Shown here one piece after another: positions 9,640 to 24,651 of a stretch of 64,000 nucleotides of DNA. Under the pieces are notes generated by a model that did not search any database, was not told the DNA's origin, and saw only the letters and a program-made list of their open reading frames with translations. The number at the start of each line of letters is the position of its first letter. The first letter of the stretch is position 1. A program made the position numbers and the translations under genes. The stretch is from Syntrophaceae bacterium (GTDB lineage Bacteria > Desulfobacterota > BSN033 > UBA1163): the NCBI GenBank assembly GCA_013388635.1, contig JACAEX010000100.1, positions 1 through 64,000 of the forward strand, in the 5' to 3' direction.

Positions 9640-11091
9640 CTATCCTTTAATCACGCCCATGGGGACGAGCTTTGCGACCTTGAGGCTGATGCCGGCATGA
9701 TGAACCACATTAACCACGTCCGTCACATCTTTATAGGCGTCCGGAATCTCCTCGACAATCGTTCCCCGGCTCGCTCCCCTTACGATGATCCCTCTATCTT
9801 CGAGTTCCCTCGCCACCGCCCTCCCCTTTGCTGCTTTAATGGCCTGATGCCGACTCATCACCCGGCCTGCGCCATGGCAGGTCGATCCAAAAGTCTCCTT
9901 CATCGCCCTCTCCGTTCCCACCAGCACATAAGAACACCGGCCCATATCACCGGGGATGAGAACAGGTTGGCCGATAGATCGATACTCTTCCGGAACATCG
10001 GGGTGGCCCGAAGGAAATGCCCTGGTCGCCCCCTTTCTGTGGACGCAGAGTCTCCTCTTCTCTCCTTCTACCGCATGGCTCTCAATCTTTGCGATATTGT
10101 GGCAGACATCGTAAATCAGATCCAGTTTTAAGTCCCTCGGACTTTTATGAAAAGCCTTTTCAAAGGTCTCCCTTACCCAATGCGAGATCATCTGCCGATT
10201 GGCGAAGGCAAAGTTGGCAGCACAGGCCATCGCTTCCAGATACCGCTGGCCTTCTGCCGAAAGCACAGGGGCACAGCAGAGCTGGGGGTCTGGAAGGTCG
10301 ATCTGATATTTCCTGGCCGCATCCATCATCACCCGGATGTAATCATCGCACACCTGATGGCCCAACCCCCTCGAACCTGTGTGCACAATGATGGTGACCT
10401 GATCTTTCCACAAGCCCAGCGACCGGGCAATGCCCTCATCGAATACCTCGGCCACATATCCGACCTCAACAAAGTGATTTCCAGAGCCGAGAGTTCCCAA
10501 CTGGGCCCTTCCCCTCTCCATGGCCCTGTCAGAGATGGAATCTGGGTCGCCTCCCGGGATACAGCCCTTTTCCTCAATATGCTCAAGGTCTTCTTCTGTC
10601 CCGAACCCCCTTTCCACTGCCCATCTCGCTCCTTTTTTGAGAACCGCTCGTTCCTCTTCCCGATTCAACTTCAGGTCTTTTCGATGCGACCCAACCCCCG
10701 AAGGGATATTGGAAAAGAGAAGATCAACCAGCTCCTTCATCCTTCCCTGAATCTCCATGCGGCTCAGACCTGAGCGCATCAAACGGACGCCTCAGTTGAT
10801 GTCGTATCCCACCCCGCCGGGTGAAACAATTCCCTCGTTCAGGTCAAACGCAGCAACCCCCCCGATCGGGAAACCATAACCCCAATGGATATCGGGCATG
10901 GCCAGGGAATAGCCAACAATGCCCGGTAGCCAGGCCACATTGGCAACCTGCGCAAGGCTCTGGTCCTTCCGGATATCGTCCAGCATCCGCTCATCCGCGT
11001 AGATGATCCCATCGGTCCTCATCTTTCCCTCTCGGGGAATTCTCCATCGGTAATCATCCACCTTTTGAATCTTAATCTTTTCGTCTGCCAT
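9640..11091 (-). CDS. rtcB: RNA ligase RtcB with an in-frame UGA (probable selenocysteine) at the active-site Cys
   Basis: Read through the TGA at 10792-10794, this is one 483-residue RtcB. Residues 1-99 end GGVGYDIN, where the family continues CGVR; here the Cys codon is TGA, followed in frame by GVRLM. That Cys (C78 in E. coli, C98 in Pyrococcus) binds the catalytic metals. The rest is complete: [17 protein letters not shown], and CHGAGR near residue 404, which holds the His that is guanylylated. RtcB joins 2',3'-cyclic-phosphate and 5'-OH RNA ends with GTP. A SECIS-like hairpin starts 12 nt after the UGA. The RtcB activator archease lies just upstream. GGGGTGA precedes the ATG. A nonsense mutation is the alternative, but the position, the hairpin and the intact downstream frame argue against it. 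Confidence 0.88.
10757..10794 (-). promoter_or_regulatory. SECIS element and UGA codon of rtcB
   Basis: On the minus strand the UGA (10794-10792) is followed by a hairpin: ATGCG + CTCA (10779-10771), loop GGTC (10770-10767), TGAG (10766-10763), one bulged C, then CGCAT (10761-10757). That gives nine pairs. The loop G lies 21 nt after the UGA. The apical part UCAGGUCUGA has the same AGGUCU core as the E. coli fdhF SECIS, which binds SelB. Distance and geometry fit bacterial SECIS rules. Confidence 0.8.
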
Positions 11092-22912: not shown

Positions 22913-23905
22913 TTATCCAGCTAGCCACTCGGATTTAACACCGATTTTTGACCTCACCTCATCCATCACCTTCCCAACGATCAACCTGCACCGCATCGCT
23001 CCGGACCTCAGTGCCTCCGTGACAAATTCGGGTTTCCCACTGATCTCTTTGACGCGGGTCTGAATCGGACCGATCTCCTCTATCATATTCTTGAAAAGGA
23101 TCTCTTTACACCCGATACATCCGATCCCTGCTGTCCGGCAATTCCTTTCGGTATCAAGAATCTCATCCGGTTTTGAGAAGGCCTGATGCATGGTGAAGAT
23201 ATTGCAATGTTCTGGGTGGCCGGGATCGCTCCGGCGCTGCCGATGGGGACAGGTGGCTGCGGTTTTCAACTTCTCCCAGATCGCTTCAGCGGGTTCGAGC
23301 AGTCCGATCGTATTATTCATCGATTTGGACATCTTGTTCTTTCCGTCTGTCCCAAGAATTCGGGGGGCTTTGGAAAGAAGAACCTGAGGTTCGGGAAAGG
23401 TGTGGCCGAAACGGGTATTGAATTTCCGGGCAACCTCTCGACAGAACTCCACGTGCTGGATCTGATCCTCGCCGACCGGAACATAACCTGCCTTGTAGAT
23501 CAGGATATCCGCTGCCTGAAGGACAGGGTAGTCGAGAAGCCCCACATTGATATTGTGGCGATGCTGTCTTCCCTTCTCCTTGAACTGGGTCATCCGCTCC
23601 AACTCACCCAATGGGGTGATGCAGTTAAAGATCCAGGCCAGTTCTGTATGCTCAGGTACGTGTGACTGGACAAAGAGGATACACCGATCCGGCGTCAACC
23701 CGCATGCCATGAGGACCGTTGCCGTATCCAAGATCCTCTTCTGCATCGAAGCCGCTTCATGTTCAATCGTGATGGCGTGATAATCGACCACGCAGTAGAT
23801 GCACTCGTACCGATCGACCAGCTCCACCCAGTGACGGATAGCGCCGACGTAGTTACCGATGTGGATTTCCCCTGTGGGCTGAATCCCGCTGAAGATGCGA
23901 TCCAT
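22913..23905 (-). CDS. trpS: Tryptophanyl-tRNA synthetase
   Basis: The 330-residue class I synthetase has FSGIQPTGEIHIGNYVGAI (HIGN, the HIGH-type motif) near the N-terminus, VPVGEDQIQHVEF in the middle and KMSKSMNN (KMSKS) near residue 195. An insertion after KMSKS carries Cys clusters (CPHRQRRSDPGHPEHC and CRTAGIGCIGCKE) of the type that binds zinc or an Fe-S cluster in one TrpRS subgroup (as in Thermotoga). The start at 23905 follows GGAGG; the longer frame upstream is the repeat-like intergenic. It charges tRNA-Trp. Confidence 0.95.
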   Translation of the reverse strand: MDRIFSGIQPTGEIHIGNYVGAIRHWVELVDRYECIYCVVDYHAITIEHEAASMQKRILDTATVLMACGLTPDRCILFVQSHVPEHTELAWIFNCITPLGELERMTQFKEKGRQHRHNINVGLLDYPVLQAADILIYKAGYVPVGEDQIQHVEFCREVARKFNTRFGHTFPEPQVLLSKAPRILGTDGKNKMSKSMNNTIGLLEPAEAIWEKLKTAATCPHRQRRSDPGHPEHCNIFTMHQAFSKPDEILDTERNCRTAGIGCIGCKEILFKNMIEEIGPIQTRVKEISGKPEFVTEALRSGAMRCRLIVGKVMDEVRSKIGVKSEWLAG

Positions 23906-23951
23906 CGATTCATTCCTCCGCTTTGCGCATGGCGCTAAGCGCTTAGCATTT

Positions 23952-23990
23952 AAAAAGAGAGGCCATGGCTTAACATTGCCCATGGCCTCT
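23952..23990 (-). terminator. Terminator on the minus strand after the C-GCAxxG-C-C gene
   Basis: An 11-bp perfect stem, AGAGGCCATGG (23958-23968) with CCATGGCCTCT (23980-23990), loop of 11, followed on the minus strand by CTTTTT. It ends transcripts coming from the selenoprotein gene at 24160-24621 before trpS. The 24001-24159 stretch in between shows no gene. Confidence 0.75.
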
Positions 23991-24159: not shown

Positions 24160-24621
24160 TTAAGCTCGATCCAGAAATTCGCAGAGCATCCGTGCGGTCT
24201 CTTCGACGATCGCCGCACACTTCTTCATGCCTCCCTCGTCCAGCCATTTCTGGCGCTCTTCCTCATTATCCAAACGATACCCTATTAGATTGTAACAGCC
24301 GGTACTCCCAAACCTCTCTTCGAACTGTTTCCAGAACTGCTGACACTTCTCATAGACCTTTAAAACCGTCGCTCGGTCCTTGGGGTCTGTCCTCCCCATC
24401 CTCATTCCGATGGCCATGATCGATCCGGTGAAGGCGCCGCAGAGAGACCCTTTACGTCCCACCCCTCCTCCAAACCCGCTGGCCAATTTCGGGATAATGG
24501 AATCCTGGCAGCCAAGATACTCCTTGAAACTCAAGGAGATCGACTCCGCTCAATTGAACCCCTGATCAAAATAACCCTTTGCCTTTTCAGCCACCCGATC
24601 CGTGTGATCGCCCTTTTTCAT
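24160..24621 (-). CDS. C-GCAxxG-C-C family protein, probable selenoprotein (Sec24)
   Basis: With the UGA at 24550-24552 read as selenocysteine, a 153-residue protein starts at 24621 behind a good AAGGAG. It reads ...GYFDQGFN-U-AESISLSFKEYLGC, where the family has Asn-Cys-Ala. Later motifs are intact: GFGGGVGRKGSLCGAFTGSIMAIG, STGCYNLIGY and CAAIVEETARMLCEFL. The family is a putative redox protein with conserved Cys; to my knowledge selenocysteine forms of it have been annotated. A SECIS-like hairpin follows the UGA. A TTG start after the UGA (24534) would lose the conserved N-terminus and has no Shine-Dalgarno. Redox partner and substrate are unknown. It is monocistronic. Confidence 0.87.
24516..24552 (-). 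promoter_or_regulatory. SECIS element and UGA codon of the C-GCAxxG-C-C gene
   Basis: Minus strand: UGA at 24552-24550, then a stem GAT + CTCCTTGA (24541-24531), loop GTT (24530-24528), TCAAGGAG (24527-24520), one bulged U and ATC (24518-24516). Eleven pairs in all, eight of them continuous at the top, with a G in the loop 20 nt after the UGA. This fits bacterial SECIS geometry. Confidence 0.75.
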
Positions 24622-24651
24622 GATCGCTCCTTTTTTCGAGAGGTGAAGTAA

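Follow-up and report, generated by a model that had tools for sequence, protein, structure and literature searches.

The C-GCAxxG-C-C selenoprotein family

The C-GCAxxG-C-C family (PF09719/TIGR01909) belongs to the known repertoire of prokaryotic selenoproteins. It is included in a 2026 catalogue, where forms 1 and 2 of these selenoproteins appear (PMC13188914), and in a catalogue from 2022 (PMC9312934). Family members have been found expressed or induced in anaerobes, namely in acetone-grown Desulfococcus biacutus (PMC4103992) and in steel-corroding Desulfovibrio, where the protein was termed putative FeS cluster-binding (PMC8322314), and one lies in a Clostridium ljungdahlii redox gene cluster upregulated on syngas (PMC5640608).

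In the 64-kb stretch of DNA analysed here (the window), we found a gene that very probably encodes a further member of this family, with an in-frame UGA decoded as selenocysteine (Table 1). Read through this UGA, which is the only one and stands at codon 24, the gene specifies a protein of 153 amino acids (MKKGDHTDRVAEKAKGYFDQGFN-U-AESISLSFKEYLG... around the UGA). The original prediction had placed an ATG preceded by AAGGAG upstream of the UGA; both are present and its coordinates for the gene are correct. The translation matches PF09719 over profile positions 1-117 of 118 (E 1.1e-28; 100.1 bits, cut-off 27) and TIGR01909, titled 'C-GCAxxG-C-C family (seleno)protein' by NCBIfam, over positions 1-118 of 120 (84 bits, cut-off 47.4). 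It thus has the same full-length domain as the known C-GCAxxG-C-C selenoproteins, and has in common with them a predicted Sec at the motif Cys, a candidate bacterial SECIS and a deltaproteobacterial host.

Table 1. Features of the predicted selenoprotein gene and of other window genes discussed in the text
Feature	Coordinates	Strand	Basis
C-GCAxxG-C-C family gene, predicted selenoprotein	24160..24621	minus	UGA-readthrough translation, PF09719, TIGR01909
Shine-Dalgarno AAGGAG, ATG 5 nt downstream	24627..24632	minus	sequence
Start ATG	24621	minus	
In-frame UGA, predicted Sec24, first Cys of family motif	24550..24552	minus	orthologue codon alignment, family alignment
SECIS-like hairpin CUCCUUGA-GUU-UCAAGGAG	24520..24538	minus	fold, stem pairing, silent-change rate, published constraints
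Stop TAA	24162-24160	minus	
Next downstream gene, presumably trpS-like (tryptophanyl-tRNA synthetase)	22913..23983	minus	ORF list
RtcB RNA ligase with in-frame UGA (10794-10792)	9640..11091	minus	sequence, comparison of RtcB loci

The window protein can be told apart from other families that resemble it. Its match to the DVU_1555 family (NF045669; E 1.9e-13) reaches 50.3 bits, far under the cut-off of 103, so that it does not belong there, and at 42 bits against a cut-off of 325 it is likewise no member of the HUGP/GUXX-star fusion selenoproteins (NF045501), whose domain it shares (E 5.8e-11). A weak similarity links it to split-Soret cytochrome c (NF047622; E 0.007), but the score is 15.8 against a cut-off of 400 and the window protein has no CxxCH motif.

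When the family is aligned together with more divergent members found in the phylum, the majority of which have Cys at position 24, the columns of Sec24, Cys61 and Cys109 prove invariant and that of Cys135 is conserved in >90% of sequences. The UGA had been predicted to fall exactly on a family Cys, and in this alignment with Cys and UGA homologues it does coincide with the invariant Cys24. The GCA element of the motif reads LCGA in the window protein and xCGA in most aligned members. The window protein is a well-supported addition to an already known selenoprotein family, and its gene provides this family with a further well-conserved group. Annotation pipelines taking the UGA as a stop would truncate the protein and drop the Sec residue.

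A SECIS-like hairpin behind the UGA

The published model of the bacterial SECIS asks for a loop of 3-9 nt with G in one of the first two positions, a stem of 4-16 bp, a spacing of 16-37 nt and a minimum free energy of at most -7.5 (PMC13188914). The hairpin that we found behind the UGA agrees with every one of these constraints: an 8-bp stem, beginning 11 bases past the UGA, carries a 3-nt GUU loop with G in first position, 19 nt past the UGA. Folded as a single sequence, the region reaches -18.1 kcal/mol (z -2.96), and none of 200 shuffled sequences did as well. The original prediction had drawn 11 pairs; the hairpin itself stands, with a different outline, as the conserved stem has 8 bp and the single-sequence fold 14 pairs when weaker lower ones are counted.

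Is this hairpin maintained by selection? Over the gene, the median of silent differences per site is 0.71 in 7-codon windows. It drops to 0.13, the minimum of the gene, in the windows starting four and five codons after the UGA, which cover the hairpin. Such a dip is the pattern expected of an RNA element within the coding region, and no other observation argues as strongly for the putative SECIS. Stem cells are paired in 97.7% of cases across 16 sequences, versus 37-63% in slid controls. One stem pair shows a compensatory change, from G-C to A-U in one sequence, with G-U in another. Covariation in the stem of these 16 sequences was not beyond that of shuffles (59 to 71 of 500), because the stem is nearly invariant. 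A search of Rfam returned no match to a SECIS family. Hairpins also occur 3' of the UGA in a paralogue of the host genome (contig C48) and in three distant UGA members (L055, L057 and L060).

Selenocysteine machinery and probable recoding of the UGA

The host genome, a 3.4-Mb draft that is 95% complete, encodes SelA (622 bits), SelB (373 bits) and SelD (391 bits) and carries a tRNA-Sec gene (selC, 81 bits), all above curated cut-offs; ARAGORN also reports a tRNA-SeC with anticodon TCA (UCA). The presence of selB and selC had been proposed as a check on the prediction, which an absence of Sec genes would have undermined, and both are there together with selA and selD.

We sought relatives of the window gene in 59 genomes, 17 of which, including that of the window, belong to the same taxonomic family. 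Close copies were found in 15 of these 17, amounting to 17 copies that are 61-76% identical to the window protein. Compared with the known C-GCAxxG-C-C members, they make up a lineage-specific group, with 29-42% identity to the more distant members compared. A Cys-for-Sec version was not found among the close copies (23 genomes of the class searched).

Could the UGA nevertheless be a stop? If it were a nonsense mutation or a sequencing error, the gene would be a pseudogene, or its translation would begin only past the UGA, with TTG 24534 as one candidate start. A 124-aa frame does exist from this TTG and the assembly is a draft. However, exactly one in-frame TGA is present in each of the 17 close copies, and the Sec24 column is TGA in 16 of 16 sequences from independent assemblies in a codon alignment comprising one orthologue from each of the 15 genomes and a contig from the genome collection (L009). 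Moreover, in the 20 codons that precede the UGA dN/dS is 0.10, and in the last 15 of them it is 0.07, compared with 0.05 for the rest of the gene after the hairpin. We calculated dN/dS as the mean of all pairwise comparisons and not on a tree, and with silent sites near saturation the contrast alone is to be trusted. Conservation confined to the region after the UGA had been named as an argument against readthrough, and we observe instead that purifying selection acts on the stretch before it as it does on the remainder of the gene. We conclude that the N-terminus is part of the protein and that translation runs through the UGA. The shared TGA and the upstream selection lead us to reject the pseudogene, the sequencing error and the late start, whose probability we regard as negligible. 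We consider it equally far-fetched that UGA has been reassigned throughout the genome, for instance as a Trp or Cys codon, and that no local recoding by SelB is involved. The open frame alone would favour this, but UGA is the ordinary terminator of 11 of the 42 window frames of at least 250 codons, which implies local recoding and leads us to reject reassignment; UGA also terminates several orthologues. The complete Sec machinery and the constraint on the hairpin right behind the UGA speak against reassignment as well.

The preference for UGA readthrough over a nonsense mutation, already expressed in the original prediction, is thus supported by the shared TGA, the upstream selection, the machinery and the hairpin constraint. 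From these sequence data we infer that Sec is inserted at codon 24. SelB with Sec-tRNA(Sec) would bind the hairpin 3' of the UGA, and the codon would then be decoded as selenocysteine 24 instead of a stop.

Another UGA gene in the window: rtcB

A second gene with UGA at a Cys position had been announced in the same 64-kb window. We identify it as that of the RNA ligase RtcB. Its UGA lies at the position of a conserved metal-binding Cys (GYDIN-U-GVR), and TGA is retained in 19 of the 20 closest RtcB loci, spanning six taxonomic families; the remaining locus, from the same taxonomic family as the host (genome G007), has TGC. The minimum free energy fold after this UGA is no better than that of shuffled sequences (z -0.09). 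Behind the UGA lies a short stem, CUCAGGUCUGAG. A text search of the 2026 selenoproteome review (PMC13188914) returned no mention of RtcB. For an engineered RtcB with Sec98, cleavage of a peptide bond close by has been reported. It is possible that RtcB with UGA is an undescribed natural selenoprotein, and this gene may be the more interesting of the two.

Besides RtcB, further UGA-bearing candidates in the genome include SelD and two more C-GCAxxG-C-C members. These additional candidates fit the sizeable selenoproteome that had been guessed from the window. The SelD gene (L029, G000:C44:47699-48625) has one in-frame TGA, so that the host SelD is probably itself a selenoprotein, a situation that is already known.

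Possible role of Sec24

In the predicted protein, which would be small and mostly helical, the conserved set comprises Sec24, Cys61, Cys109 and Cys135, and Sec24 would stand in for its first Cys. The reputation of the family and these conserved Cys suggest a redox role for Sec24, which we find rather probable. The residue would most likely be the reactive or metal-ligating one in a thiol/selenol redox centre that takes part in electron transfer under anaerobic conditions; with moderate confidence, we propose a thiol/selenol redox or metal centre of this kind. Alternatively, and here the difference concerns the mechanism only, Sec24 may be made for metal or iron-sulfur ligation or for structure and not for catalytic selenol redox. 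Four conserved Cys/Sec positions would suit metal binding, and the iron-sulfur label given to the Desulfovibrio member in a proteomics table (PMC8322314) points the same way. On the other hand, the majority of selenoproteins characterised so far are oxidoreductases that carry Sec in their active site, as is generally known and as stated in the abstract of the 2022 catalogue (PMC9312934), and we hold the purely ligating or structural role as a tentative proposal. A bolder idea, that the Sec-only orthologous group forms a distinct functional subfamily with a selenol reaction so far not attributed to C-GCAxxG-C-C proteins, seems unlikely to us.

Structural comparison and gene neighbourhood were also considered. 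A sequence search of the PDB returned no relative, its single match being to an exocyst subunit (E 0.24), which we rejected as a chance, low-complexity hit. An AlphaFold model based on eight close sequences consists entirely of helices, with a moderate pLDDT of 75, and shows no significant fold match in the PDB. No obvious redox partner was seen among the neighbours at orthologous loci. The downstream gene, which we take from its sequence to be trpS-like, is kept in most orthologous loci though not in all genomes, as judged by blastp of the neighbours, and its adjacency is probably incidental to the function of the selenoprotein.

Paralogues and paired copies

The host genome contains five family members, namely the window gene and genes on contigs C48, C20, C35 and C74. 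Three of the five have UGA at the position equivalent to Sec24: the window gene and the two further C-GCAxxG-C-C genes on C48 (L002/L083) and C20 (L004/L085). The C35 paralogue has Cys there. On C74 (L084, G000:C74:15945-16352), the C-GCAxxG-C-C domain is part of a longer protein that has a signal-like stretch at its N-terminus and CxxCH motifs at its C-terminus and looks like a split-Soret cytochrome c. Two close copies of the window selenoprotein gene are present in each of two other genomes (G008 and G013), which suggests either a recent duplication or two subgroups with differing neighbours.
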